From Paludibacteraceae bacterium (GTDB taxonomy: Bacteria; Bacteroidota; Bacteroidia; Bacteroidales; Paludibacteraceae), in NCBI GenBank assembly GCA_017471285.1, contig JAFUUZ010000002.1, positions 1-36,949 on the forward strand: a DNA stretch of 36,949 nt. Reading direction: 5' to 3'. Position 1 is the stretch's first letter. Each line of letters starts with the position of its first letter. The notes under the pieces were generated by a model. That model saw nothing but the letters and a program-made list of their open reading frames with translations. It had not been told where the DNA came from and did not search any database. The position numbers were made by a program, and so were the translations under genes. Below are positions 1-36,517 of the stretch, in pieces.

Positions 1-21
1 TCGGGGGGAGGGGAAATAGAT

Positions 22-55
22 AACCCCACCCCGACCCTCCCCTCAAGGGAGGGGG
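22..55 (+). repeat. Family A palindromic repeat, copy 1 (forward)
   Basis: A C-rich tail (AACCCCACCCCGA) is followed by the perfect arms CCCTCCC (35-41) and GGGAGGG (47-53) around a 5-base loop. It lies upstream of murE. Related copies occur at 318, 2998, 5724, 25145 and 32511 in this orientation and at 3114, 3404, 6160 and 6886 inverted. No gene is visible in positions 1-102; the rest is purine-rich (GGGGA/AGGGA) sequence. Confidence 0.75.
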
Positions 56-2997: not shown

Positions 2998-3033
2998 GAA
3001 ACCCCACCCTGACCCTCCCCACAAGGGAGGGAA
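2998..3033 (+). repeat. Family A palindromic repeat, copy 3 (forward)
   Basis: Six bases after the mraY stop: a C-rich tail, then CCCTCCCC, a short loop, and GGGAGGG. It is the best uninterrupted match to the split copy in murE. Confidence 0.75.
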
Positions 3034-3073
3034 ATAACGAAGAGGTAACTACCAATATTGAGCAAACTGTTGA

Positions 3074-4492
3074 ATGTATAAAAAAATATCTAATATGAGC
3101 AAGACTAATCAGACCTCTCTCCCTTGTGGGGAGAGCCGGAGAGGGGTTCGTCGAATCGTTGTTTTAGGAGCCGGCGAGAGCGGTAGCGGGGCTGCTATTC
3201 TTGCCAAGGAGAAAGGATTTGATGTGTTTGTATCCGACTGCGGCACAATCAGCGAACCGTACCGCGCGCTGCTCGACCAGAACGGCGTCCAATGGGAGGA
3301 CGGAGCGCACACGTTTGACAAAATCAAAGATGCCGACGAGTATATCAAATCGCCCGGCATACCGCTGAATGCACCTGTTTTGGAACAGATCCGCGAATAC
3401 AAAAACTCCCTCGCCCCTGAGGGGAGAGCCGGAGAGGGGTTATCGGTTATCTCCGAGATCGAGTTTGCAGCCAGATACACCCATGCGAAGATGATATGTA
3501 TCACCGGTTCCAACGGAAAAACCACCACCACTTCGTTGATTTTCTATATCTTGAAGCAGGCGGGACTGGATGTAGGTCTGGCGGGCAACATCGGCAATTC
3601 GCTGGCGCTCCAAGTGGCACATGAGGACCATGACTATTACGTCATTGAACTCAGCTCTTTCCAACTGGACAACATGTATGATTTCAAGGCGGATATCGCC
3701 ATCCTGCTCAACATCACGCCCGACCATCTGGACAGGTACGACTATAAGTTCCAGAACTACGTCGATGCCAAGTTCCGCATCACGCGCAACCAGACCAAAG
3801 AGGACAGCTTCATCTACTGGGCGGAGGACCCTGTTATTGACCGTGAGATGAAGAAGATACAGTTAGGCGCGACCCTCTACCCCTATGGTTTCACCCAACC
3901 GAATCCGCTGCCGGTAGGGGAAGACGAACTGGCGTTGAAGGGACGGCATAATGTCCTCAACTCCATGGCGGCTACCATCGCTGCGAATGTAGTAGGAATC
4001 AAAAAAGAGGTCATCCGCGAAAGTCTCATGACCTTCCAAGGCGTGGAACACCGCTTGCAGTATGTCGCTACCGTCCGGGGCGTAAGATATATCAACGACT
4101 CCAAAGCGACAAACGTCAACTCTTGCTGGTACGCCCTTGAGTCCATGACCACGCCGACTGTACTTATCCTCGGAGGAAAGGACAAAGGAAACGATTACTC
4201 CGAGATTGACGAACTGGTGAAGCAGAAATGCCACACCCTCATCTTCATGGGCCTGCATAACGAGAAACTGCATGAACATTTTGAAAAATTAGTCGAGAGT
4301 CAAAAGTCGAAAGTCGAAAGCCCTATTCAGATCATCGACACGAACAACTTGCACGATGCGGTACAAGCGGCGTACCATGCGGCAAGAGAGGGCGACACCG
4401 TACTCCTCTCCCCTTGCTGCGCTTCTTTCGACCTCTTCAAGTCCTATGAAGACCGCGGAGAACAATTCATGGCGGCGGTAAGAGAGTTATGA
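3074..4492 (+). CDS. murD: UDP-N-acetylmuramoyl-L-alanine:D-glutamate ligase MurD
   Basis: Cytoplasmic Mur ligase that adds D-glutamate to UDP-MurNAc-L-Ala. The product has the N-terminal Rossmann-like motif VVLGAGESGSG, the ATP loop GSNGKTTT (145-152), ELSSFQL, NITPDHLDRY, EHR and ILGGKDKGNDY. Three segments look foreign to the family. Residues about 14-25, between the start codon and VVLGAGESG, come from an inverted family A repeat (3114-3148). Residues about 111-122 come from another (3404-3441). ESQKSKVES near residue 411 comes from an AAAGTCG tandem (4291-4322). The start is uncertain: ATG 3074 is the longest choice, and ATG 3095 (MSKTNQT) has the more A-rich upstream sequence. The stop overlaps the ftsW start (ATGA). 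Confidence 0.96.
   Translation: MYKKISNMSKTNQTSLPCGESRRGVRRIVVLGAGESGSGAAILAKEKGFDVFVSDCGTISEPYRALLDQNGVQWEDGAHTFDKIKDADEYIKSPGIPLNAPVLEQIREYKNSLAPEGRAGEGLSVISEIEFAARYTHAKMICITGSNGKTTTTSLIFYILKQAGLDVGLAGNIGNSLALQVAHEDHDYYVIELSSFQLDNMYDFKADIAILLNITPDHLDRYDYKFQNYVDAKFRITRNQTKEDSFIYWAEDPVIDREMKKIQLGATLYPYGFTQPNPLPVGEDELALKGRHNVLNSMAATIAANVVGIKKEVIRESLMTFQGVEHRLQYVATVRGVRYINDSKATNVNSCWYALESMTTPTVLILGGKDKGNDYSEIDELVKQKCHTLIFMGLHNEKLHEHFEKLVESQKSKVESPIQIIDTNNLHDAVQAAYHAAREGDTVLLSPCCASFDLFKSYEDRGEQFMAAVREL
3114..3148 (-). repeat. Family A palindromic repeat, copy 4 (inverted), in the 5' end of murD
   Basis: Arms CTCTCCC (3117-3123) and GGGAGAG (3129-3135), with the tail GCCGGAGAGGGGTT on the right. 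Its reverse complement resembles copy 1. It is translated in frame as SLPCGESRRGVR. Confidence 0.7.
3404..3441 (-). repeat. Family A palindromic repeat, copy 5 (inverted), inside murD
   Basis: CCCCTGAGGGG core with the right tail GAGCCGGAGAGGGGTT, shared with the copy at 3114. It is translated as NSLAPEGRAGEGL between conserved MurD segments. Confidence 0.7.
4291..4322 (+). repeat. Short tandem array inside murD
   Basis: Repeated AGTCGAA/AGTCAAA units read in frame as ESQKSKVES, in a C-terminal surface region of MurD. Confidence 0.5.
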
Positions 4493-5724
4493 GAAAATTT
4501 GATTTAAATACTATTGACCGCACCTTTTGGGTGATTTTCCTGCTCCTGATCGGTGTCGCTGTCATCGCCCTTTTCTCGGCGTCTTCGACACTCGTGTACA
4601 TGCATCATTCCGCCCTCGGACCGATCGGGCAACAGATGCTTTTCATCGTGATGGGAGTCATTGCGGCGTTTTTTATCCAGTTTATACCTACTTATTGGGT
4701 CCGCTTCGGCGGGTATATTCTGCTGGCGGTCAGCACCTTGCTGGTCTATTCCACGATGATCCCCGGAAACCCGCTCGTGGTCACTATCAACGGTGCCGCA
4801 CGATGGGTGCGGATTGCCGGCATCACCTTCCAACCTTCCGAACTGGCGAAACTGAGTCTCATCATCGTCGTCGCCGACCAGCTCGCACGCATACACACCG
4901 AGGAGGACAAACGGAAGTATTTCTATCGCACACTCGTCATTGCGGCGGTGGTGATGCTGCCCGTCATGGCGTCGAACCTCTCTACAGCGGTGCTCATCGG
5001 ACTCATCATCTTCTGCCTCTGGATACTCGCACGTATTCCTTGGAGATATACCATGTCGGTCGTCGGTATCGCTTTTCTGGTCCTCGCACTCGGGTACGCG
5101 ATCGTGGAGTTCGCTTTTGTCAGACCCGGCAGACAGATGCACGGACCCTTCAAAAGAGCTACTGTCTGGGTCAGCCGTATTGATCATCATTTTGATCAGG
5201 ACGACGGCTCCAAGTATGTCCTTACCGACGATAACATACAGGAGGTCTATGCCTCTGTCGCTGTCGCGCGGGGAGGCATGTCGCCGCTCGGCGTGCTGCC
5301 CGGTAACAGCAAAGAGAGAGACTATCTACCGCTGGCGTTTGCGGATTATATCTTCGCTATCATTGTGGAGGAGTCAGGGTTTGTCGGAGCTTTCGCACTG
5401 ATCTTCCTGTATATGGCAATCCTCTTCCGGGCGTGTAATATATCCAGCCGCTATTCGGATATGCCGGCTATGCTGATGACTATGGGACTCGCGCTGATGA
5501 TCACATGCCAGGCACTCATCTCCATGCTCGTCGCTGTCGGACTCGGACCCGTCACAGGACAACCCCTGCCGCTTATCTCCAGAGGAGGTACGTCCGTTCT
5601 CATCACGTCCGTCTATTTCGGCATCATGATGGGCGTCAGCCGCGAACAGACCGAACTGCGCGAACGGGTCAACGAGACCAAGGTGGAAAGCGCCGAAGAA
5701 GCACCTATTGTTAATTTGGAATAA
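4489..5724 (+). CDS. ftsW: Lipid II polymerase / cell-division protein FtsW (SEDS family)
   Basis: SEDS-family peptidoglycan glycosyltransferase of the division septum. The 411-residue polytopic protein opens with a cytoplasmic segment and a first helix near residues 13-33. It has the family signatures INGAARW, FQPSELAKL, VLPGNSKERDYLPLAFADYIFAII (split here: VLPGNSKERDYLPLAF, then ADYIFAIIVEE) and LPLISRGGTS. Length and position after murD favour FtsW over RodA. Its ATG overlaps the murD stop by four bases, which implies translational coupling. Unlike its Mur neighbours I see no repeat-derived segment in it. The hydrophilic stretch near residues 205-240 (GPFKRATVW, DQDDG) is the large loop usual in this family. 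The DUF559 cassette follows. Confidence 0.95.
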   Translation: MRKFDLNTIDRTFWVIFLLLIGVAVIALFSASSTLVYMHHSALGPIGQQMLFIVMGVIAAFFIQFIPTYWVRFGGYILLAVSTLLVYSTMIPGNPLVVTINGAARWVRIAGITFQPSELAKLSLIIVVADQLARIHTEEDKRKYFYRTLVIAAVVMLPVMASNLSTAVLIGLIIFCLWILARIPWRYTMSVVGIAFLVLALGYAIVEFAFVRPGRQMHGPFKRATVWVSRIDHHFDQDDGSKYVLTDDNIQEVYASVAVARGGMSPLGVLPGNSKERDYLPLAFADYIFAIIVEESGFVGAFALIFLYMAILFRACNISSRYSDMPAMLMTMGLALMITCQALISMLVAVGLGPVTGQPLPLISRGGTSVLITSVYFGIMMGVSREQTELRERVNETKVESAEEAPIVNLE

Positions 5725-5758
5725 AGGCCCCACCCAGCCTCCCCGTGGAGGGGAGGAG
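5724..5758 (+). repeat. Family A palindromic repeat, copy 6 (forward), left flank of the DUF559 gene
   Basis: The tail GGCCCCACCCA lies on the ftsW side. The perfect arms CCTCCCC (5738-5744) and GGGGAGG (5750-5756) face the DUF559 gene. With copy 7 it forms an inverted pair around that gene, tails outward. Confidence 0.75.
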
Positions 5759-5771
5759 AAAATATACTAAC

Positions 5772-6152
5772 ATGGAGCATAAATACATGACCTCAAACAG
5801 ATGCGAGTATCCGGTTTTAAAGGAACATGCACAACATATGCGTAAAGAACCAACGGAGGCTGAAAGCATATTATGGCAATACTTAAATAGCAAGCATCTG
5901 GGAATTAAGTTTCGACGCCAGCATATTATTGATTCATATATTGTTGACTTCGTGTGTCTTAGCAAGAAACTAGTTATTGAGGTCGATGGTAAATATCATG
6001 ACAAAACCGAACAAAAAGCATTAGACGAGCAACGCCATCACAGATTAAGGGAACTGGGATTTACAATCATTCGATTTACTAATGAACAAGTTATGTGTGA
6101 TATAGAAAATACTATTTTAAGTATAAAAAATCATTTACAAAATGCAAACTAA
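5772..6152 (+). CDS. DUF559 family Vsr-like endonuclease-fold protein
   Basis: A 126-residue protein of the DUF559 family, which has the PD-(D/E)XK/Vsr-like fold. Visible family features are AEAILW-type ESILWQYL (31-38), FRRQHIIDSYIVDFV (47-61), the acidic pair in VIEVDG (E70, D72) following D59, then HD, a RHHRLRELGF helix and a closing IIRFTNEQV strand. These match a complete family member, so it is probably intact. The gene lies between ftsW and murG, where such a gene is not normally found, and is bracketed by inverted copies of family A repeats. Its last 11 bases contain the murG start codon. ATG 5772 is preferred to an in-frame GTG at 5745 that lies inside the repeat. A role in DNA nicking or repeat mobility is inference; no activity is known from the sequence alone. 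Confidence 0.88.
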   Translation: MEHKYMTSNRCEYPVLKEHAQHMRKEPTEAESILWQYLNSKHLGIKFRRQHIIDSYIVDFVCLSKKLVIEVDGKYHDKTEQKALDEQRHHRLRELGFTIIRFTNEQVMCDIENTILSIKNHLQNAN

Positions 6153-7287
6153 TAATACATCTTCCCCCCTCCATGGGGGGATAAGAGGGGGGCGCTACCT
6201 CATTTCCGGTGGCGGGACCGGTGGACATATCTTCCCCGCAATCAGTATTGCCAATGCCTTGAAGGAATTGGATCCTAATGCCGAGATCTTGTTTGTCGGT
6301 GCGCTCGGACGTATGGAGATGGAGCGAGTGCCGCAAGCTGGGTATCGGATTGTCGGACTACCCGTCAGGGGATTCAACCGCGCACAGCCGTGGAAGAACT
6401 TCTCGGTTCTCGTCGATCTGGCTAAATCGATTCGCCAAGTCAAGAAGATCATACGCGATTTCCGGCCTGACGTGGGCGTCGGGGTCGGAGGGTACGCTTC
6501 CGGAGCTGCCATGTGGGCGGCGGCGAACATGGGAATACCTATCCTCCTACAGGAGCAGAACGGATTCGCCGGAGTAACCAATAAGATCCTCAAAAACAAA
6601 GCCGCTAAGATCTGCGTCGCCTACGAAGGGATGGAACGCTTCTTCCCTGCCGATAAACTCATCCTCACCGGCAACCCCGTCCGCCAATCCCTCCTAAACG
6701 GCGTAGCCAATAAACCTCAAACCGGCGAAGCCAATAAACATCTTTTGATCATCGGCGGTTCACTCGGAGCACGGACTATCAACGAAGCCGTTGCGGCTGG
6801 GATCCCGGCTCTTCAGAAAGCAGGTATTCATGTCGTCTGGCAAACAGGCAAGACTTACTACAAAAAAATCATCGATCAACTCTCATCTTCCCCCCTCTAT
6901 GGGGGGACCGAGGGGGGCTTGGAGGTTCACGATTTCCTCTCCGACATGCCGGACCAATATGCGAATGCCGATCTCGTCATCTCGCGCGCAGGCGCCTCCT
7001 CTATCTCCGAACTCTGTCTGCTGGGCAAACCCGCTATCCTTGTGCCGTCACCGAACGTGGCGGAGGATCATCAGACACATAACGCCATGGCGCTGGTCAA
7101 CCAAAAGGCAGCGGTCCTCGTCAAAGACTGCGAAGCGGCGGAGAAACTGATTCCTGCCGCGCTCGAACTCATACACGATGACCAACGCCTCGAAGACCTG
7201 CATACCAATATTCTCAGACTCGCGCAACCCGACTCCGCCAAACGGATTGCTGAGGAGGTGATAGCACTTGCTAAAACACACTTGTAA
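6142..7287 (+). CDS. murG: UDP-GlcNAc:lipid I N-acetylglucosaminyltransferase MurG
   Basis: Peripheral inner-membrane GT28 enzyme that converts lipid I to lipid II. The 381-residue product has the N-terminal GGGTGGHIFPA loop, GVGGYAS, LQEQNG, the C-terminal IIGGSLGA, the donor-site segment SRAGASSISEL and the PSPNVAEDHQTHNA block. The first dozen residues, before RYLISGGG, are encoded by the end of the DUF559 gene and an inverted family A repeat (6160-6196), so the native start has been replaced or extended. A second copy (6886-6918) encodes SSSPLYGGTEGG before the conserved VHDFLSDM. The start overlaps the DUF559 stop by 11 bases. murC and the fts genes that usually follow are not here. Confidence 0.96.
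   Translation: MQTNNTSSPLHGGIRGGRYLISGGGTGGHIFPAISIANALKELDPNAEILFVGALGRMEMERVPQAGYRIVGLPVRGFNRAQPWKNFSVLVDLAKSIRQVKKIIRDFRPDVGVGVGGYASGAAMWAAANMGIPILLQEQNGFAGVTNKILKNKAAKICVAYEGMERFFPADKLILTGNPVRQSLLNGVANKPQTGEANKHLLIIGGSLGARTINEAVAAGIPALQKAGIHVVWQTGKTYYKKIIDQLSSSPLYGGTEGGLEVHDFLSDMPDQYANADLVISRAGASSISELCLLGKPAILVPSPNVAEDHQTHNAMALVNQKAAVLVKDCEAAEKLIPAALELIHDDQRLEDLHTNILRLAQPDSAKRIAEEVIALAKTHL
6160..6196 (-). repeat. Family A palindromic repeat, copy 7 (inverted), right flank of DUF559 and 5' end of murG
   Basis: Perfect arms CCCCCC (6164-6169) and GGGGGG (6175-6180), with the tail ATAAGAGGGGGGCG on the murG side. It is read in frame as SSPLHGGIRGG at the MurG N-terminus. Confidence 0.75.
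6886..6918 (-). repeat. Family A palindromic repeat, copy 8 (inverted), inside murG
   Basis: Arms CCCCCC (6890-6895) and GGGGGG (6901-6906), with the tail ACCGAGGGGGGC. It is almost the same as copy 7 and is read in the same frame (SSPLYGGTEGG). Confidence 0.75.
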
Positions 7288-8859: not shown

Positions 8860-9894
8860 ATGGAAAAGACTAAAATCGCAACCTACATCTACAATTCGAT
8901 CATTATTCTGCTTCTTCTGGCAGGCATCACGTACGTAGTGATGCAGTTCACCCATTTCGGACATATCGAATACACTGACAACGCGCGTGTCTGCCAATAT
9001 ATTGCGCCGCAGAACACACGCGTGCAAGGATTCATAAAGGAGATCCGTTTCCAATCCTACCAGCATGTGGAGGAAGGAGACACGCTCATTGTCATCGAGG
9101 ACAGCGAGTACCGCTTGCGTCTGGCACAAGCCAAAAGCGACTTGGCACGCGCTGAGCAGCAGCAGAAAGCGACAGGTTCCTCTATCTCTACCACCAAATC
9201 CAGCATGACGGTGACAGAGGCTTCCATCGAAGAAGCCAAGGTGAACATGGAGAATCTGGCACGCGAGGACAAACGATATGAGGCTCTGCTGCGCGAGAAA
9301 GCGGTTACACAGCAGCAGTACGACCAGATTCACACTTCCTATCTCTCCGCCAAGGCGCGCTATGAGCAGGTCAAGCAGACCCGCGCTATGCAAAGCAATG
9401 TGGTACAGGAACAGGGATATCACCTCTCCGCATCGGAAGCCGCATTGCAGCAAGCGCAAGCCGCTGTCGAACTGGCGGAGCTGAACCTCTCCTACTGCTA
9501 TATCATCGCCTCGCGGTCCGGTATCGTAGGAAGCCGGGACATTAACCTCGGGCAACTCGTCAACCCGGGGCAGACACTGGTCTCTATTGTGGATGAAAAC
9601 GACATCTGGGTGGAGGCGAACTACCGCGAGACCCAACTGCCCAATATCCACGAAGGAGCGGAAGTAGTGATCCGGGTGGATGCCGTGCCCGACCATGTTT
9701 TCAAAGGCCGTGTAGAGCGGCTGTCAGACGCTACCGGCAGTGCCTTCTCGCTCGTGCCGATTGATAACGCTACCGGCAACTTCGTCAAGGTAGAGCAACG
9801 CCTCACGGTGCGTATCTCGCTCGCGGAGAACAGCCCGGAGGAACTCCGTTTGCTCAAAGCCGGCTATTCCGTCGAAACCGAAGTCAAATACTAA
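8860..9894 (+). CDS. HlyD/EmrA-family membrane-fusion (periplasmic adaptor) protein
   Basis: A 344-residue periplasmic adaptor linking the inner-membrane pump to the TolC-like channel. It has one N-terminal transmembrane helix (about 11-29). The biotinyl-lipoyl half-motifs follow: VQGFIKEIRFQSYQHVEEGD early and SGIVGSRDINLGQLVNPGQT late. Between them is a long Ala/Gln-rich coiled-coil hairpin (about 85-205). The beta-barrel part contains DIWVEANYRETQL. This order and the SRSG(I/Y)VG pattern fit the EmrA branch, consistent with an EmrB-like MFS partner next door. It starts two bases after the upstream stop. Its stop lies in a 15-base tandem repeat that continues into the next gene. Confidence 0.93.
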   Translation: MEKTKIATYIYNSIIILLLLAGITYVVMQFTHFGHIEYTDNARVCQYIAPQNTRVQGFIKEIRFQSYQHVEEGDTLIVIEDSEYRLRLAQAKSDLARAEQQQKATGSSISTTKSSMTVTEASIEEAKVNMENLAREDKRYEALLREKAVTQQQYDQIHTSYLSAKARYEQVKQTRAMQSNVVQEQGYHLSASEAALQQAQAAVELAELNLSYCYIIASRSGIVGSRDINLGQLVNPGQTLVSIVDENDIWVEANYRETQLPNIHEGAEVVIRVDAVPDHVFKGRVERLSDATGSAFSLVPIDNATGNFVKVEQRLTVRISLAENSPEELRLLKAGYSVETEVKY

Positions 9895-9922
9895 ATGACC
9901 AAATGGTAAATGACCAAATGGT
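9893..9922 (+). repeat. 15-bp tandem duplication across the adaptor/MFS junction
   Basis: Two exact units of AAATGACCAAATGGT span the adaptor stop codon and the first codons of the MFS gene, so the latter begins MVNDQMVNAMP. Confidence 0.8.
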
Positions 9923-11549
9923 AAATGCTATGCCTTTTTCAATGCCTATGTTCCGTGACCGGGTGCCTCGCCGCATCCAGCCGTGGATATATATCCTCCA
10001 GGTCTTCTGCATCCAATTCTCCGGCGGCGTTTATCTCGGCGCATTGGAGGCGGTGCGAGGCACGACGGCACTCATGCTGGAGGACCTACTCATGCTCCTC
10101 TATGCCGGACTCGCAGGCATGGCGGTTTATTTTCCGTTGCTGTTCCGGATGAAGTTCCGCTTCACGAACCAGCAACTCCTATGCGGAGCCGCAGTTGTGA
10201 TCGGCGTCTGCAACCTCATCACCATGTCCTCCACTAACATGGCTATCCTGCTTCCGGTGTGTTTTATTGCCGGTATGGCAAAGATACAGGGTACGTTCGA
10301 GTGCATGAGTAATATCCAATTATGGATGACGCCTACCCGCGATTTCGGGATCTTCTTCCCTATCCTGCATATCGTGCTCCTCACCGCCATCACCGGCAGT
10401 GCATGGCTGGGTGCGGTCTTTGCTTTCCATTTCACATGGCAGATGATGCATGTCTTCACGATCGGTACCATGTGTCTGGTCATCCTTATCCAACTCACTC
10501 TCTGCCGGCCTTTCTGCCCTATGCCCCAACGAATGCCCTTACGCGGAATAGACATCTGGACCGGGCTCTTGATCAGTCTGCTCATGCTCTTGGTCACGTA
10601 TTTTCTGGTCTATGGCGACTATCTCATGTGGCTGCGAACCCCGCGGTTGAGATGGGTTCTGGCGATAAGTCTGATCCTGCTCGCGTTCATCATGTATCGT
10701 CTTAAAACGGTTGAACGGCCCTATATCTCGCTGGAGGTCTTCAGATACAAGAATGTCCTGCCTATCCTGCTCGTCACGGTCATTGCAGAGATCATGTTAG
10801 GCGCGGAACACACACTGGAGGAGATCTACTGGGCGGAAGTGATCGGACTGGAGGAGCATACCAAATGTACGCTCTGTCTCTGGGCGCTGCCGGGTGTCTA
10901 TGTCGGAGTACTCATCACGCTCTTCTGGCTGGGACGTAAGAAATGGAAGGTCTGGAAACTCTTTGCCATCGGGTTCGGATGCATCTTCGGGTATGCCGTA
11001 TGGATGTATTTCAACTTGGATGTCAATGTGCCGCTTTCGCAATACCGGGTGGCACTTGTCTTGAGAGGCTGCGCTTATGCCATTCTGGCATCGTCGCTCA
11101 TGTGGTCGCTCCATGAATCCGTCCATGATCTGGAGCATTTCTTCATGGCGCTTTTTGTTTTCAATATCATCCACATGTACCTTGCCGGAGGAGCAGGATA
11201 CGGACTCTACACCACCCTCTTCAAACATCTCCTGGCGGACAACATGTCCCGCTATGGCGCCTATATGACCCTCACATCTTTGAGCCCGCAAGGCGGTCTT
11301 TCTACTTTGAGCGCAAGCGGTCTATCTACTTTGAGCCTCCAATCCATCGCTATCTCGCTCAAGCAGATCTTCGGTCAACTGGTATGGGCTTCCGGTTTTA
11401 TGACGCTGGCGTTCCTGCTGCTCGATATTCCGCGCATCCGCACGGGAATAGAGAAAGTACCGTATTGGCCTGTCTATGGTATCAAGATGCTCAGCCGCTA
11501 CCGTAGGCTCAATCCCGCGACCTCTCCGCGACCATCGCGAAGGTTTTAG
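9903..11549 (+). CDS. EmrB-like MFS (DHA2-type) transporter
   Basis: A 548-residue polytopic membrane protein with about 12-14 hydrophobic segments. It is taken to be the inner-membrane pump of the exporter because it follows TolC-like and EmrA-like genes. N-terminal topology and length fit the 14-helix DHA2 family, although I do not see a textbook MFS motif A, so the family call is partly from context. Residues about 459-479 (LSPQGGLSTLSASGLSTLSL) are encoded by a repeat array at 11276-11338, inserted in a loop before the last helix. The first codons lie in a 15-base tandem duplication; the true start could be a later ATG (9927 or 9939). An intrinsic terminator follows 10 bases after the stop. 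Confidence 0.85.
   Translation: MVNDQMVNAMPFSMPMFRDRVPRRIQPWIYILQVFCIQFSGGVYLGALEAVRGTTALMLEDLLMLLYAGLAGMAVYFPLLFRMKFRFTNQQLLCGAAVVIGVCNLITMSSTNMAILLPVCFIAGMAKIQGTFECMSNIQLWMTPTRDFGIFFPILHIVLLTAITGSAWLGAVFAFHFTWQMMHVFTIGTMCLVILIQLTLCRPFCPMPQRMPLRGIDIWTGLLISLLMLLVTYFLVYGDYLMWLRTPRLRWVLAISLILLAFIMYRLKTVERPYISLEVFRYKNVLPILLVTVIAEIMLGAEHTLEEIYWAEVIGLEEHTKCTLCLWALPGVYVGVLITLFWLGRKKWKVWKLFAIGFGCIFGYAVWMYFNLDVNVPLSQYRVALVLRGCAYAILASSLMWSLHESVHDLEHFFMALFVFNIIHMYLAGGAGYGLYTTLFKHLLADNMSRYGAYMTLTSLSPQGGLSTLSASGLSTLSLQSIAISLKQIFGQLVWASGFMTLAFLLLDIPRIRTGIEKVPYWPVYGIKMLSRYRRLNPATSPRPSRRF
11276..11338 (-). repeat. Family B repeat array inside the MFS gene
   Basis: Two and a half units of CTTTGAGC-(CGCAAGGCG or GCAAGCG)-GTCTATCTA, with the small palindrome CCGC-AAG-GCGG. 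Its reverse complement (AGACCGC...GGCTCAAAG) matches the intergenic copy at 34157. It is read in frame. Confidence 0.6.
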
Positions 11550-14561: not shown

Positions 14562-14572
14562 TCCTTGCTACG

Positions 14573-14608
14573 GCATTGCAGAAGCAATGCAAAAAAGCAG
14601 TATCTTTG
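14573..14608 (+). promoter_or_regulatory. Promoter with a palindrome over the -33 region (CHAT gene 1)
   Basis: -7 element TATCTTTG (14601-14608) with TTG at 14576-14578. The -33 box lies in the perfect inverted repeat GCATTGC-AGAA-GCAATGC (14573-14590), which could be an operator or a weak hairpin at the end of the upstream transcript. The gap before it is only 12 bases. Confidence 0.7.
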
Positions 14609-14627
14609 CACAAATAACTATACACTC

Positions 14628-17162
14628 ATGAGACATCACCTTTTAATAATAATCGCTTTTCTTTGGGGACTTGCAGATTTCTCCTCTGCCCAAATCGATG
14701 AATCGTCTATCAATCCGTTACTTTTGGAAAAAATGGGACTTGAGTACTTCGATAAGAATGATTTCCAAAGGGCAGAGCAATATCTTACTCAAGCACTTAT
14801 GCATTATCAGGCGCGATATGGCATCAAAAATGAACGATGTGCGTCCGTGCTTATTAATCTTGGAAATTTATACATGCAAAACCAAAATAATGAAGCCGCG
14901 GAAACGTGTTTTATCAAGGCACGCGATATTTGTGCAGAAACAACCGGAAAAAAAAGCACCCGCTATGCATTAGCCACAGCCAATTTAGGTGCGCTCTATA
15001 TAAAATCTGCGATGGTAGAAAGAGGAGAGATGTACACACGGGAGGCCGCGGACATTTATGCAGAAATAATAGGCAAGAATACCATTGATTACGCTCGAAC
15101 ACAAAACACTCTCGGTGGGTATTATTTCTTAAGAGGAGAGATGGAGCTTGCCCATATGTATCTTTCCAATACCCTGCTGCGATTAGACTCTATTCAAACA
15201 GCGCCCACTGATTCCTCTGCTCTATATGGCAAGAATCAGCTTTACCTTAGTGCTCTCATCAATCTGGGGGCTGTCTATGTTGATAGTGACCCTAAACAAG
15301 CATTAGATATATATCAAAAAACTTTAAAACTTATTCAGGACATGGCGCTTGAGGGAAGCGAGGAGCACATGAAAATTAAGTTGAATATTGCAAATATAGC
15401 GCGAGAATATGGGGAATTTAATCTAGCCGAGAAATTTTATCAGTCTGTGTTGACTTATAGAGAACAAACACCCACCCCGTCATATTATCAGAATATCATC
15501 ATTTATCGTAATTTAGTATTGTTATACGCTGCAAAAAATGATCTTCAGAAAATTGCACTATTTTATCGGAAGTTAGAAAATGCATGCAAAATGTATTTCA
15601 TTCAGTCTATCAACTATATGACAGAAGACCAACGGAGAGAAATATCATACACTATCACAGGAGAGTACGAATCTGATTTTCCGCAATTTACTGCTTTCTA
15701 TTATCCACAAAATCACGCTATCGCCGGCTGGGGATATAATAATGAGCTTTTTGCAAAAGGTATGCTTCTCCAATCCACCGATGCTGTCAAAAATTCCATT
15801 TTGAGGTGCGGCGATACAACACTCATTCAACAATGGGAAAAATTAGTCTCTTTGAAACAGAAGATGGCGATGCAAAGCAACGATACGGACTTGGAATTTA
15901 TTCAAGAAAACAAATTGGAAGTGGAACAACTTGAGAAAGAGATTACACGCAAGAGTGCTACTTATCGCGAGAATATGCGGCAATGGAATATAACATGGGA
16001 TAGTGTCAAAGCGACCTTAAAGCCGAATCAAGTTGCCATCGAGTATATGCGTGCACCGATGAAAGAAGATCGCACGATGTACTGCGCTTTACTGCTGCGG
16101 GATACATGTTCCTACCCCATTATGATTCCGCTCTTTGAGGAAAAAGAGGTGACTCAACTGATAGAGGTTTCTATTCCGAGTTCTATCAGCAAGGCATATT
16201 CCTATCGCGAGAACGGGAAAGAACTATCTCGTCTGGTATGGAGTAAGGTATTGCCATACATCAATCCCGGCGAAATCGTCTTCTTCGCCCCCACAGGATT
16301 GCTCCATGAAGTAGCTATGGAATCAATCCCTTATGATTCTACACAAGTCATTTCGGATGTTTATAACCTTGTGCGGCTCTCCTCTACACGCGAATTGGTC
16401 ATTAACAGACCTGCCATTCCCCATAAGAAAGCAACGCTATACGGAGGTATCAGTTATGACGTGAGCGCAGATGAATTATTGGCACAAAGCGCAGCCTACC
16501 CATCTTTAGCGTCCAGATCGGTTATCAGCGACACTATTAATCGTGGGCGGGTACACTATCTGCCGGGAACCAAGTCCGAGATAGAGGGTATTCAAAAAGT
16601 ACTATCCGATAAAAAAATTCATGTTCAAGCATATACAGCCTCAGCAGCAAACGAAGAGTCCTTCAAAACCCTGTCCGGCACAAAACAAAACATCCTGCAT
16701 GTTGCTACACATGGTTTCTATTGGGCTGACTCCACCAACATAGACCCGATGGAACGGAGCGGATTACTTCTTGCCGGAGCCAATATTGCCCTTTCCGGAC
16801 ATAGCGAACGGCTGCCGAAAGGAATAGAAGATGGTGTCCTAACCGCCAAAGAAATCTCTACATTGGACTTACGCGGGGCGGATATTGTTGTTCTCTCCGC
16901 CTGCGAAACAGCCCAAGGTGTGATTTCCGGAGAAGGAGTGTTTGGACTCCAACGAGCATTCAAAATGGCAGGAGCCCAAAGTATACTCATGGCATTATGG
17001 AAAGTAGATGATGAAGCGACGAAGACATTAATGACAGCTTTCTATCGTTATTATTGTCAAGGAAATAACAAACGTCAGGCACTACGGCTTGCACAGCAGG
17101 AAGTTCGCAAAAACGGATATTCTAATCCGTACTATTGGGCAGGATTTGTTCTTCTCGATTAA
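14628..17162 (+). CDS. TPR-CHAT caspase-like peptidase, copy 1 (exported)
   Basis: An 844-residue protein with a signal peptide (about 1-22, MRHHLLIII...SSAQ), so periplasmic or surface. Residues about 30-320 are tetratricopeptide repeats. A helical linker follows (SLKQKMAMQ..., ENMRQWNITWDSVKATLKPNQ), then a C-terminal CHAT domain (about 480-844) of the caspase/separase clan. The catalytic dyad is intact: His695 in HVATHGF and Cys759 in SACET, 64 residues apart. It ends in the family-typical YYWAGFVLLD. From about residue 480 it is very close to copy 3 at 29713, even in DNA, while the TPR part differs. It has its own promoter 20 bases before the ATG. The ATG was chosen because an in-frame TTG at 14565 lies upstream of that promoter. 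Substrate unknown. Confidence 0.9.
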   Translation: MRHHLLIIIAFLWGLADFSSAQIDESSINPLLLEKMGLEYFDKNDFQRAEQYLTQALMHYQARYGIKNERCASVLINLGNLYMQNQNNEAAETCFIKARDICAETTGKKSTRYALATANLGALYIKSAMVERGEMYTREAADIYAEIIGKNTIDYARTQNTLGGYYFLRGEMELAHMYLSNTLLRLDSIQTAPTDSSALYGKNQLYLSALINLGAVYVDSDPKQALDIYQKTLKLIQDMALEGSEEHMKIKLNIANIAREYGEFNLAEKFYQSVLTYREQTPTPSYYQNIIIYRNLVLLYAAKNDLQKIALFYRKLENACKMYFIQSINYMTEDQRREISYTITGEYESDFPQFTAFYYPQNHAIAGWGYNNELFAKGMLLQSTDAVKNSILRCGDTTLIQQWEKLVSLKQKMAMQSNDTDLEFIQENKLEVEQLEKEITRKSATYRENMRQWNITWDSVKATLKPNQVAIEYMRAPMKEDRTMYCALLLRDTCSYPIMIPLFEEKEVTQLIEVSIPSSISKAYSYRENGKELSRLVWSKVLPYINPGEIVFFAPTGLLHEVAMESIPYDSTQVISDVYNLVRLSSTRELVINRPAIPHKKATLYGGISYDVSADELLAQSAAYPSLASRSVISDTINRGRVHYLPGTKSEIEGIQKVLSDKKIHVQAYTASAANEESFKTLSGTKQNILHVATHGFYWADSTNIDPMERSGLLLAGANIALSGHSERLPKGIEDGVLTAKEISTLDLRGADIVVLSACETAQGVISGEGVFGLQRAFKMAGAQSILMALWKVDDEATKTLMTAFYRYYCQGNNKRQALRLAQQEVRKNGYSNPYYWAGFVLLD

Positions 17163-24930: not shown

Positions 24931-25587
24931 ATGAAAACTTCTTTCAAAACCACCACCCGTATTGCCGCTATCGGCATGATTGTGTACACGCTGTACATCG
25001 CAGCACGCTTTCTTATCCATTTGATCCATCCCATGCCGTACCATTACGTTCTATGGGAAGATATATGCGAGCGTCTGATACTTGATATTCTGCCGCTCAG
25101 CCTGATTATAGCAGGCATTGGTTTGTGGAATCCCTCAACGGGAGAGGCCCCCCAGCCCCCCAAAGGGGGAGTTGAGCCCGTGGAAGTCAGCAAGCCATTC
25201 CGCATACTGACTCTCTGCTTGCTCTGCGGATTGGCGGGAACAGTCATTCTTTCTCCTCTTTATGCGTTTTCCATAGCCGGTGCGACTCCTCTATTCCCGC
25301 CTTTCCTTTGGCGTGTTGCCTTAGCCGTTGCAGGAATAATCTGGCTCTTCATGCTCGGCAACCGGACACCAGAGACAAGCGTTTCCCTTCCGTTCCGCGT
25401 GACACTGGCTATAGCGATGGCGTTGCTGGCATTGCCTGTCGTTTTAGAGGCAATCTCAGGAATAGCTCTGTTATGCGGCAATGAGACTGTCCTCGGTCTC
25501 CGTTCCGGAGTAATCCAGACCTGGGTCAAATACATTGCACCTATCCTGCCACTGGGGTATATATTTTGGAGGTATCGAAAACATTAA
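24931..25587 (+). CDS. Small polytopic membrane protein with a repeat-encoded loop
   Basis: A 218-residue protein with five or six transmembrane helices (about 12-32, 45-65, 93-113, 125-143, 155-175 and 195-212). No family is recognised; it resembles DUF2975-type membrane proteins only in size and topology. Residues about 69-90 (STGEAPQPPKGGVEPVEVSK) between helices two and three are encoded by a family A repeat copy (25145-25195) and form a hydrophilic loop. ATG 24931 is chosen over an in-frame GTG/ATG in the end of pfkA. It starts 16 bases after pfkA. Confidence 0.75.
   Translation: MKTSFKTTTRIAAIGMIVYTLYIAARFLIHLIHPMPYHYVLWEDICERLILDILPLSLIIAGIGLWNPSTGEAPQPPKGGVEPVEVSKPFRILTLCLLCGLAGTVILSPLYAFSIAGATPLFPPFLWRVALAVAGIIWLFMLGNRTPETSVSLPFRVTLAIAMALLALPVVLEAISGIALLCGNETVLGLRSGVIQTWVKYIAPILPLGYIFWRYRKH
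25145..25195 (+). repeat. Family A repeat, copy 9, extended form, inside a membrane-protein gene
   Basis: AGGCCCCCCAGCCCCCC-AAA-GGGGGA, then 12 variable bases and GGAAGTCAGCAAGC. Copy 10 at 32511 shares both blocks at the same spacing, and both are read in the same frame (APQPxKGG...EVSK). Confidence 0.7.
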
Positions 25588-27600: not shown

Positions 27601-29700
27601 ATGAGCATTATACTTCAAATAGCAGTAGGCGCACTTGCATTGATCAATAGTATCTATGAAGAGCCTAATAGCCGGGAAATGAATTCCCTCCTATCTATTT
27701 ATGCCAATGAATACGGAGTTGATAGTCCCGAATACGCAGACTGCGTACTATGGTGTGCCACACGTCTCGCCGAATATGAAGCGATAGGCGAAGCCGAACA
27801 ATTGGTAAAGCATAGTACTTATTTGTATAAAAAATACGGGAATGGCTCTTTTAACGGAAGAGATAGTATTTCTCAAATCCTCTATTTGGATGCACTTTCT
27901 TGTATTGCCAAGATGAAAGGACAAGAGTATCTTCAAATGCGATATTCAGAACGGTCACTATTACTAAAGAAAGACCTACTGGGCAATGAAAGTGATGCCT
28001 ATTTGAATAACTTGTTGGATTTGGCAGAGTTGTATGCAGATAGGTTAATGTACACACGCTCCAGGAAAACGCATAATAGCGGTTACGAGACCTATGTTAA
28101 TTTAATTAGACGCGAGTTCTCCCGTTTGCCTGAATCCCAACGGCAAACATACTGGGATCATGTATCCGGATATATAGACAAAACAATCACTATGGCACAT
28201 AGGAATGCCAGCAGCAAAGTAACAATTAAATCCAAAGATCTCTCAAAAGCTGCCTATAATGCTTCTTTATTATCCAAGGGCCTGCTACTGAATACAACCA
28301 TCGGATTTGAAACATATGTCAGAAATAGCGGAATTGAGTCAGCAGTTACCCTCTTAAATCAGAAAAAAGCTGCCATGGAGAAGTTTGCTGAGACAAAAAC
28401 ATTGGATTCATTAGATTACGCTATTCTCCATGAATTGGCAATCCATGACAAGCCGTTTAAAGTGGCTCATTTGGAACTCACTTGGGATAGCGTTCGCGCG
28501 AATTTGGGAGAACATGATATTGCCTTGGAGTTTTATCGTACCCGTTTAGGTTCATATGGTGTTTTAGCTCTTCGGCAATCTTGGTCTTCTCCTAAAATGA
28601 TACCCTTGTTTGAAGAGAGCGAAGTCAACTCTTTACTACACAAAAAAACGAATGGCGAAAATTGGATAGACATCGGTTATACATATGCCTACAAAGGAAG
28701 GGGAAAACAACTTAAAGAACTAATATGGGATAAGATACTACCCTATCTCCATCCCGAAGATAACATCTTCTTCTCTCCAATAGGTATTTTACATATTGTT
28801 GCTATAGAAAATCTACCCTTTGACATGCAAAGCACAATAAGTGCCCATTATTCTATTACGCGACTCTCCTCTACACGCGAATTGGCAATCAAAAAACAAC
28901 CTACTCTATTTCAAACCGCCTCTCTATACGGAAACATCAATTACAGCGAGCTGAGCGATTCTGTCATGAAAGCCAATAGCATAAAATACGCCCATCGAGG
29001 ATTTATGCATTTCAGCATAGATGAGCAGTTAGAAGGAATTACTAGAGGTGGGGCAACAAAGTCTTTGCCAAATACGAAAAAAGAGATCGAGACCATATAC
29101 CCTATCCTCATAAAGAACAATATAGATGTAAGCATTTATTCGAACGATACGGCCAACGAAGAATCTGTTAAAGCTCTAAGCGGCACCAAACAGAATATTC
29201 TTCATTTTGCCACACATGGTTTTTTCTGGAAGCCCAGCCGTAAGCATCGGGACCCATTGGAGCGAACCGGATTGGTCTTCGCCGGAGTGGATAAGATTAG
29301 GATGAAAGGTTCAAATGCTATTCCTGACGATGTGGATGACGGTATCCTAACCGCCAAAGAGATTGCATCTTTGGATTTTCAAAGTACAGATATTGTCGTT
29401 ATGTCTGCATGTGAGACAGGGTTGGGAGATATATCCGGAGACGGTGTATTCGGCTTACAGCGGGCATTCAAGATGGCAGGGGCTCAGACCATTATAATGG
29501 CACTATGGCAGGTCAATGATAAAGCAACACAAATCCTCATGACTGAATTCTACCGTAATTATTTCGAACGTAAAATGTCCAAACGAGAAGCCTTTCGGGA
29601 GGCACAACAAACAGTCAAAAAATCCAGTTACAAGGACGGAAGCATTACCATATATTTCAACTCTCCCTATTATTGGGCTGGGTTTATATTGCTGGATTAA
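27601..29700 (+). CDS. CHAT caspase-like peptidase, copy 2 (divergent)
   Basis: A 699-residue protein. The N-terminal 270 residues are helical and TPR-like but degenerate (ANEYGVDSPEYADCVLW, EAEQLVKHSTYLY). The linker keeps HLELTWDSVRANLGEHDIAL. The CHAT domain runs to the C-terminus with His539 in HFATHGF and Cys604 in SACETGLGDISGDGVFGLQ, ending in YYWAGFILLD, so the dyad is intact. It is clearly more distant from copies 1 and 3 than these are from each other. The N-terminus (MSIILQIAVGALALINS) is hydrophobic but has no positive n-region or obvious cleavage site, so export is uncertain. Start at ATG 27601, 10 bases after the previous gene. CHAT copy 3 follows after 12 bases. Confidence 0.88.
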   Translation: MSIILQIAVGALALINSIYEEPNSREMNSLLSIYANEYGVDSPEYADCVLWCATRLAEYEAIGEAEQLVKHSTYLYKKYGNGSFNGRDSISQILYLDALSCIAKMKGQEYLQMRYSERSLLLKKDLLGNESDAYLNNLLDLAELYADRLMYTRSRKTHNSGYETYVNLIRREFSRLPESQRQTYWDHVSGYIDKTITMAHRNASSKVTIKSKDLSKAAYNASLLSKGLLLNTTIGFETYVRNSGIESAVTLLNQKKAAMEKFAETKTLDSLDYAILHELAIHDKPFKVAHLELTWDSVRANLGEHDIALEFYRTRLGSYGVLALRQSWSSPKMIPLFEESEVNSLLHKKTNGENWIDIGYTYAYKGRGKQLKELIWDKILPYLHPEDNIFFSPIGILHIVAIENLPFDMQSTISAHYSITRLSSTRELAIKKQPTLFQTASLYGNINYSELSDSVMKANSIKYAHRGFMHFSIDEQLEGITRGGATKSLPNTKKEIETIYPILIKNNIDVSIYSNDTANEESVKALSGTKQNILHFATHGFFWKPSRKHRDPLERTGLVFAGVDKIRMKGSNAIPDDVDDGILTAKEIASLDFQSTDIVVMSACETGLGDISGDGVFGLQRAFKMAGAQTIIMALWQVNDKATQILMTEFYRNYFERKMSKREAFREAQQTVKKSSYKDGSITIYFNSPYYWAGFILLD

Positions 29701-32652: not shown

Positions 32653-32669
32653 GTCCTCATTTAACCTTA

Positions 32670-32724
32670 TTATGACGCACTTATGACGCACTTATCACCC
32701 ACTTATCACGCACTTATCACGCAC
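32670..32724 (+). repeat. Five tandem 11-bp units (iteron-like)
   Basis: TTATGACGCAC twice, TTATCACCCAC once, TTATCACGCAC twice, without gaps. The period of 11 bases is near one helical turn. The array begins 17 bases after the CHAT copy 3 stop and lies about 285 bases before the CHASE2 gene. The gap 32653-33009 also holds an inverted repeat, a promoter and 23-bp repeats, but no gene. Confidence 0.85.
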
Positions 32725-32748
32725 TAATTTTTCGAGGTTAATACGTTA

Positions 32749-36335: not shown

Positions 36336-36517
36336 TTTTTCGCGGATTAGGCCAAATAAGTATAACCGCCGCAGCGTATGAGCCTACGGCAGCAGCGCAC
36401 AGGAAGAGGGTTATCGCCGCACCGCCCTAACAGGCTATCAGCCGTCAGCCATCAGTCGTCAGCCAAGAAAACTGAATACTGAAAGCTGAATACTGAAAGC
36501 CAAAAATTAAAGTACAG
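36336..36517 (+). promoter_or_regulatory. Structured leader of rplU, possible r-protein autoregulatory element
   Basis: About 180 untranslated bases separate the promoter from rplU. ATAACC (36362-36367) pairs with GGTTAT (36409-36414), enclosing GCCG/CGGC stems. The second half (about 36430-36505) is short tandem sequence: TCAGCCATCAGTCG-type units and two copies of CTGAATACTGAAAG. The structure may mediate feedback by L21 or L27; I cannot name an RNA family. Confidence 0.5.
36430..36505 (+). repeat. Short tandem arrays in the rplU leader
   Basis: TCAGCCGTCAGCCATCAG units, similar to the array inside murE (1269-1302), followed by two copies of CTGAATACTGAAAG. Confidence 0.65.

Follow-up and report, generated by a model that had tools for sequence, protein, structure and literature searches.

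The 36,949-nt stretch analysed here (contig JAFUUZ010000002.1 of the Paludibacteraceae assembly GCA_017471285.1; below, the window) contains a small DUF559 nuclease gene with an inverted repeat at either end, located between ftsW (4489–5724) and murG. The DUF559 open reading frame (ORF) matches PF04480 with an E value of 5.9e-36 in a Pfam scan of the window proteins, bearing out the original prediction of such a gene at this junction. Its start was set at ATG 5772; an alternative GTG at 5745 falls within the left repeat. Each repeat is a tail joined to a hairpin, and the left copy is forward and the right copy inverted with both tails outward, as had been predicted (arms at 5738–5756 and 6164–6180). 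The left end has a perfect triplex register (7/7). The parts of the cassette are as follows, in window coordinates.

5724–5756, plus strand: left end of the intact cassette, with C-rich tail GGCCCCACCC and hairpin CCTCCCC-gtgga-GGGGAGG (arms 5738–5756), tail outward toward ftsW.

5772–6152, plus strand: predicted DUF559 / YcjD-like PD-(D/E)XK nuclease gene, by Pfam, with Protein Data Bank (PDB) relatives 3hrl and 3r3p and invariant E, D and E-x-D-G-x-x-H.

6142–6162, plus strand: cassette-borne ATG (6142) and short polar leader, the present murG start, overlapping the DUF559 3′ end.

6163–6195, minus strand: right end of the intact cassette, with hairpin CCCCCC-tccat-GGGGGG (arms 6164–6180), G-rich tail outward toward murG.

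6142–7287, plus strand: murG reading frame, the host gene, with its N-terminus from the cassette.

The murG frame opens at ATG 6142 within the tail of DUF559 and crosses the right repeat in frame (MQTNNTSSPLHGGIRGG-RYLISGGG), with the repeat itself (6163–6195) read as SSPLHGGIRGG. In relatives, murG starts with ATG followed by codons like CGTTAC, where the window has GGGGGGCGCTAC; the native murG start has therefore been lost. A murG gene was identified in 57 of the 61 genus genomes, and the comparison covers 30 loci, those of the window and of 29 relatives. ftsW adjoins murG in 18 of the 29, with a gap of -3 to 67 nt in 17 and therefore no room for a cassette, and the remaining junction holds another gene; the other 11 stretches, in which ftsW was not found, have no readable junction. 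The empty ftsW–murG junction that had been expected in relatives is thus found. Start-codon-rich tandem repeats (AAATGACCAAATGGT-like), which occupy short intergenic gaps in several relatives, are present in the ftsW–murG gap of locus L123, in the mraY–murD gap of L154 and in the window at 9887–9928. The segment 5724–6195 is very probably a single mobile element of ~0.47 kb, composed of one nuclease gene and terminal inverted repeats.

A second cassette is located in the window at mraY–murD (2999–3149), with both outward ends kept and an internally deleted nuclease.

2999–3031, plus strand: left end of the decayed cassette.

3036–3098, plus strand: remnant of the DUF559 3′ end (NEEVTTNIEQTVECIKKYLI, then stop), whose TGA overlaps the murD ATG at 3095.

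3117–3149, minus strand: right end of the decayed cassette, read in frame as the murD N-terminus.

The ~85 nt between these repeats still code for the DUF559 C-terminus NEEVTTNIEQTVECIKKYLI, the homology being judged by eye. Five genomes of the genus (G020, G045, G050, G056 and G067) have a full cassette at mraY–murD with the same kind of ends. Among 20 regions of relatives surveyed, 13 are empty at this junction (gaps of 0–56 nt), two are filled (G045 and G056), one has other content (1,044 nt) and four are unreadable. Together with the window remnant, filled, empty and internally deleted states are therefore seen for one site. The 1,044-nt gap (locus L161, genome G062) has AT-rich, inverted ends (ACGATAATTATATGTTAAA-like) and lies at the junction that the cassette occupies elsewhere.

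Association of the repeats with DUF559 was assessed with a mechanical descriptor (a C-rich tail and a hairpin with C-rich and G-rich arms) in 80 relatives, the best of 569 confirmed, taken with as much as 10 kb of flank on either side; all 80 titles are of Bacteroidota. Low-scoring PF04480 matches (L011–L014 and L017), at which such repeats were not seen by eye, were kept out of the counts, and L019, L020 and L140–L144 lay outside the set examined. Local alignment of the left flank with the reverse-complemented right flank scored at or above the 99th percentile of 3,198 same-locus controls at 47 of 78 loci, two of the 80 being dropped for too little flank. In 77 loci (the other three had too little flank), the descriptor counted 132 units over the 39.9 kb lying within 260 nt of the gene (3.3 per kb) and 98 over 1,096 kb beyond 1 kb (0.089 per kb), a 37-fold enrichment over the rest of the same loci. 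The tails point outward in 127 of the 132 near units, and both ends were found by descriptor at 46 of the 77 loci. Elements with both ends are 435–656 nt long (median 485; 56 loci, with two duplicates still in), occupy many different sites, and have at each site their own matching left and right ends. Pure chance is rejected by the same-locus controls, the contrast in density and the Markov versions of the window described below.

The same association is found in other phyla. Twenty of 45 DUF559 records from plasmid (19 of 42) and phage (1 of 3) collections were chosen by hand rather than at random. The ten non-Bacteroidota loci with 6-kb flanks contain 25 near units in 5.2 kb (4.8 per kb) versus 20 far units in 100 kb (0.20 per kb), a 24-fold enrichment in which some near units are nested in one another, and in seven of the ten the inverted-repeat score exceeds all ~65 controls. 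Enrichment beyond Bacteroidota is seen in Deinococcota, Cyanobacteriota and Alphaproteobacteria, so that the expected concentration of repeats beside DUF559 genes across genomes holds in both samples. Three of four Deinococcus loci have an outward pair, Sphingomonas and Pseudanabaena have inverted pairs with the tail inward, the Parageobacillus locus has no units, and by descriptor there are none at the Sinorhizobium or Shinella loci. The Sphingomonas gene lies between sufB and sufC, again an operon junction. A Photobacterium record (L170) has a long, REPIN-like array of alternating inverted triplex-type repeats directly beside DUF559. No paper joining DUF559 to repeats turned up in a literature search of partial coverage, in which absence is not proven.

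It is quite unlikely that DUF559 is a passenger captured between two repeats that are moved by a repetitive extragenic palindromic (REP)-associated tyrosine transposase (RAYT), an insertion sequence or a host factor. Such a passenger would accord with the abundance of solo repeats in genomes without a strong DUF559 match and with the position of most copies away from the nuclease gene, but not with the 37-fold enrichment, fixed outward orientation and left/right matching in Bacteroidota or the enrichment in other phyla. Nor does it accord with the Pfam scan of 18 host ORFs and fusions, in which DUF559 (with the overlapping MTES_1575 model) is the sole foreign domain between or before the host parts.

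On the G-rich strand of the repeats, the tail mirrors the G-arm of the hairpin with A or T facing A, which is the rule for an intrastrand purine triplex. Eight of the ten window units have a perfect register, as do 91 of 126 informative units beside DUF559, whereas swapping tails among units gives 19.2 on average and 31 at most. Judged by sequence, the repeats are intrastrand-triplex motifs of the PIT/TM type and are predicted to fold as such.

Many of the elements are located within genes. Ninety-four distinct loci (96 minus two duplicates) were classed by reading frame, an element being called internal when the open frame continues without a stop for more than 60 codons upstream of the DUF559 match and more than 40 downstream of it. 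Fifty-five lie within a larger open frame, eight are fused in frame to a downstream ORF, and 21 are restarts, in which a stop is present but an ATG lets the downstream ORF read through the right repeat; of the rest, five restart otherwise, three run off the contig and two are decayed or odd. Host frames named by the Pfam scan include those for LeuRS (two sites), Ile/Val-type tRNA synthetases, RecG, a UvrD-type helicase, MetH, DegT aminotransferases, CinA, a type I restriction subunit, GH31 and UDP-GlcNAc 2-epimerase, and there are N-terminal fusions of DUF559 to IspF and to Gmk. One MetH protein (L037) contains two DUF559 domains, each inserted in frame at its own place. Of 79 right-hand repeats, 77 have two or three open forward frames, and insertions may be tolerated for this reason. 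One 99% complete genome has a single LeuRS that passes the family cut-off, and it is interrupted, the break falling between profile positions 234 and 238. LeuRS is essential; the filled gene must therefore work.

In-frame insertion in essential genes is typical of inteins, and with the sole LeuRS of one genome interrupted, the in-frame elements could be thought of as inteins or introns that are removed before the host protein works. This is very improbable. DUF559 alone lies between the host halves, where no Hint domain was found in Pfam and NCBIfam scans, and no Rfam family, hence no group I/II catalytic core, reached its gathering score in 99,512 bases (99.5 kb) from six loci; intein and intron were rejected on these respective grounds. 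There is also little room, the RecG insert being ~145 residues that are mostly DUF559.

Empty and filled alleles can be compared directly at RecG and DegT. A RecG match at E ≤ 1e-60 is present in 260 of the 296 Bacteroidota genomes, and of the 30 closest loci four have a ~145-residue insert at one identical point and 26 do not. The insert replaces about two residues before PPHVLVMTATP, and two of the 26 empty loci are longer by 9 and 27 nt. Two DegT paralogs coexist in one genome, of which only one contains the element. Its ends are GCCCCCC and GGGGGGC, and ~12 nt of the target are gone as judged by eye, the edges being good to a few nt as the copies are ~84% alike. In a tree of 92 DUF559 proteins, the insertion site requires 15 changes versus a shuffled mean of 43 (59 labelled rows), although the tree has few columns and many weak forks and the site labels were assigned by hand from BLAST clustering and Pfam. 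In the closest RecG pair the inserts are 99.1% alike versus 93.9 and 92.7% for the host parts (Fisher p ~1e-7, from rounded percentages), and in the second-closest pair 93.8% versus 85.0 and 88.1%. Inserts more alike than their hosts in these two pairs fit a recent transfer into the same site.

The 39 DUF559 proteins aligned have invariant residues that include E31, D59, E70, D72, H76 and D85. A profile search of solved structures identified 3hrl (an endonuclease-like protein; E = 2e-30), 3r3p ('Mobile intron protein'; 6e-7) and PvuRts1I chains (0.008); we take 3r3p to be I-Bth0305I. The PADLOC homing endonuclease model matches at 1.9e-5 and a restriction model at 0.003. The protein is predicted from these matches to be a nuclease of the EDxHD-like PD-(D/E)XK kind. 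YcjD is classed within PD-(D/E)XK, and Vsr appears as a profile hit, in PMC1189080.

Repeats away from the two cassettes are numerous. The descriptor identifies ten units in the window, two around the intact DUF559 gene and eight more of which two are weak, agreeing with the at least eight further copies originally predicted; none was found in any of ten second-order Markov versions. A covariance model of the genus repeats recovers nine window units at E ≤ 0.1, seven of its own 40 rows being window units. Solo and weak copies are as follows.

21–53, plus strand: solo repeat upstream of murE, with a weaker overlapping unit at 35–67 on the opposite strand; descriptor and covariance model.

3410–3442, minus strand: solo repeat within the murD frame, in frame; descriptor and covariance model.

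6889–6921, minus strand: solo repeat within the murG frame, in frame, situated in a loop that varies among species; descriptor and covariance model.

25142–25169, plus strand: weak copy; descriptor and covariance model.

32510–32537, plus strand: weak copy with poor triplex register; descriptor only.

By the covariance model, the 1.55-Mb assembly (55% complete) has 84 copies or more, 111 of 292 candidates having been scored. At most 111 candidates were scored per genome throughout, so that high counts are lower bounds. Among the 61 genus genomes, 17 were classed as DUF559-positive (strong match, E < 1e-20) and 44 as the rest, including six with weak matches. The positives have a median of 26 repeats versus 4.5 (Mann-Whitney p = 2e-4; p = 0.008 among genomes at least 90% complete), and every positive has at least one copy, whereas 11 of the 44 have none. 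This link is partly circular because the model rows come mostly from positive genomes; three positives that gave no row have 4, 107 and 110 copies. It is also not strict, because genomes without a strong match hold as many as 80 (G021) and 102 (G049) copies; the expectation that genomes without DUF559 lack the repeats thus stands as a difference in abundance and fails as a rule. REPs are said to outlast their enzyme, and the repeats here may likewise outlast the nuclease.

Further repeats of other kinds are present in the window. A TCAGCC-type repeat (family D14) at 1267–1306 and 36440–36465 has one copy in frame within murE (QPSAVSHQP) and is another translated family. murD contains AAAGTCGAAAGTC-type units at ~4290–4325, and the MurG linker of relatives has KVESRKSKVESR or ERREVKGER; further repeat families may enter the murD and MurG linkers in frame. 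About five 11-nt tandem units (TTATGACGCAC-like; family D5) lie downstream of an ORF end at 32659–32728. The motif AAAAAAGCAGTATCTTTGCA (family D7), reminiscent of a Bacteroidetes promoter, occurs five times (7365, 14591, 17193, 20223 and 20491). Three long ORFs (14565–17162, 27601–29700 and 29713–32652) share blocks of 74–88% DNA identity (families D1 and D2) and are presumably TPR-CHAT paralogs.

These elements are probably homing-like mobile elements consisting of a nuclease and triplex-forming ends, with the solo repeats as derivatives. The sequences show a unit with fixed ends that accompanies DUF559 in several phyla, sites that are filled in some genomes and empty in others, one site occupied in different species, insertion in frame, a deleted derivative, a nuclease domain related by profile to homing enzymes, and lineages clustered by site. 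We infer nuclease activity, a cut site, repair, and movement of the solo repeats in trans, with a mechanism that is on balance, and with modest confidence, homing-like. DUF559 would cut or nick an unoccupied copy of the target, or the repeat structure itself as an extruded hairpin or triplex, and repair from a filled copy would then insert the element, end processing leading to the apparent loss of some 3–12 nt at the site. The element would persist because the host gene is spared. Within an ORF it would form an extra in-frame domain, its ends being open in two or three frames; at a gene start it would provide the ATG, in many cases overlapping the element's stop, and the right repeat would become the host N-terminus. 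Internal deletion would leave paired ends, and further decay or mobilisation in trans would give rise to solo repeats.

Several observations weigh against a homing-like element. By descriptor, an outward unit is missing from at least one side at 31 of the 77 Bacteroidota loci, and outside Bacteroidota only 22 of 41 units (20 loci) point outward, so that orientation is not universal. Repeats are abundant in some genomes that have no strong DUF559 match, such as G021 and G049. Target-site duplication was not seen at DegT or RecG, no clear target motif was found, and 3–12 nt of target are apparently lost at the sites compared. In PADLOC the best match is DpdF, a Dpd defence protein, at 1e-5, marginally better than the homing model. 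In E. coli, TM-type repeats lie only on the 3′ side of ycjD. Across 13 filled RecGs divergence is usually faster in the insert than in the host, the similarities of the two are correlated over all 78 filled pairs (rho 0.43), and clustering by site could be vertical descent with loss. An ordinary insertion sequence was considered separately and rejected, no duplication being seen at DegT or RecG and no DDE transposase domain being present.

The RecG correlation and the clustering of DUF559 by site are what would be expected of ancient fusions inherited vertically, with frequent loss and no present mobility, and from the value of rho descent with loss therefore also contributes. As a full account this is unlikely, if not negligibly so: in the two closest RecG pairs the inserts resemble each other more than the hosts do, filled and empty paralogs occur in one genome, and many different sites are occupied by elements with their own matching left and right ends. 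A second alternative is a domesticated, Vsr-like role in repair, in which DUF559 would guard break-prone triplex repeats and would for that reason be adjacent to them. One study proposes the Caulobacter DUF559 protein VsrA as a Vsr-like mismatch-repair enzyme (PMC12907096), a further point against homing, and another ties TM motifs to genome instability (PMC4666352). Such a role is nevertheless improbable, as it does not need cis linkage, inverted ends or in-frame insertion in LeuRS and RecG, and patchiness at identical sites would be unexpected.

The homing-like reading may extend to E. coli, in which ycjD (DUF559, present in K-12) is matched in 3,365 of 5,426 complete genomes and, in the strains read, is flanked by sapF and fabI. 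The KE47 and H240 chromosomes (W01 and W02) have 14 and 25 matches to a repeat pattern allowing up to three mismatches, with none in a reversed control; a stricter pattern matched none. W01 has one and W02 has four inverted pairs in which the repeats are separated by less than 150 nt, and these five pairs resemble gene-less element ends. Two E. coli strains without ycjD have efflux genes at that place, and given the one-sided repeats, E. coli therefore provides no neat empty site. We propose tentatively, as a serious possibility just short of an even chance, that DUF559/YcjD proteins define a new class of splicing-free homing elements that span phyla, sit in frame in essential genes and have triplex ends, with the PIT/TM repeats of E. 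coli and hundreds of other bacteria as their footprints and YcjD as the missing mobility enzyme.

Triplex-forming repeats have hitherto had no known agent of spread, and their primary description reports no mobility activity nearby (PMC4666352). Their tie to one small nuclease family that includes ycjD of E. coli K-12 makes the spread of repeats testable at the bench. Selfish DNA may enter single-copy essential genes such as that for LeuRS and stay as a translated domain without splicing. For annotators, extensions like SPKGRAGEG- or PPKGG in bacterial proteins can be translated repeat ends.

The elements can be compared with several known systems. With REP/RAYT systems and REPINs they share short palindromic repeats in high copy number, an inverted pair around one enzyme gene, and gene-less, REPIN-like pairs. 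They differ in the enzyme family, in insertion within ORFs, and in the foot: classical REPs carry a conserved tetranucleotide foot of the GTAG/GGAG type, which is absent from the consensus of 40 units here (AACCCCnCCCCG, then the hairpin). The window gene gives only DUF559 and MTES_1575 in Pfam and no HUH Y1 transposase domain, and RAYT was rejected on this basis. The original description of the cassette as REP/RAYT-like is thus a fair analogy, with inverted copies around a gene and many solo copies, and does not hold as membership.

Rickettsia palindromic elements are palindromic insertions translated in frame within genes, and the elements here are likened to them by description only. We know of no nuclease gene for the Rickettsia elements, whereas one is part of the element here. 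EDxHD and Vsr-like homing endonucleases are alike in a nuclease domain related by profile, patchy occupancy of one site and empty alleles. The present elements, unlike these, have their own triplex-forming terminal repeats and keep the host in frame, and no self-splicing intron or intein was found in the element loci scanned here.

The closest match for the repeats is the PIT/TM family. According to Holder et al. (2015; PMC4666352), TM_ECO is always intergenic in E. coli and no mobility genes or activity were found nearby, whereas the repeats here are often translated (within murD, murG and many host ORFs) and end a nuclease element. The same study reports triplex formation in vitro for TM_ECO (PMC4666352). 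The order of C-rich tail, C-arm, loop and G-arm, the tail that mirrors the arm on the G-rich strand, the many copies and the inverted pairs are common to both, and the second loop of the repeats here is CCG, as in TM_ECO type B (PMC4666352).

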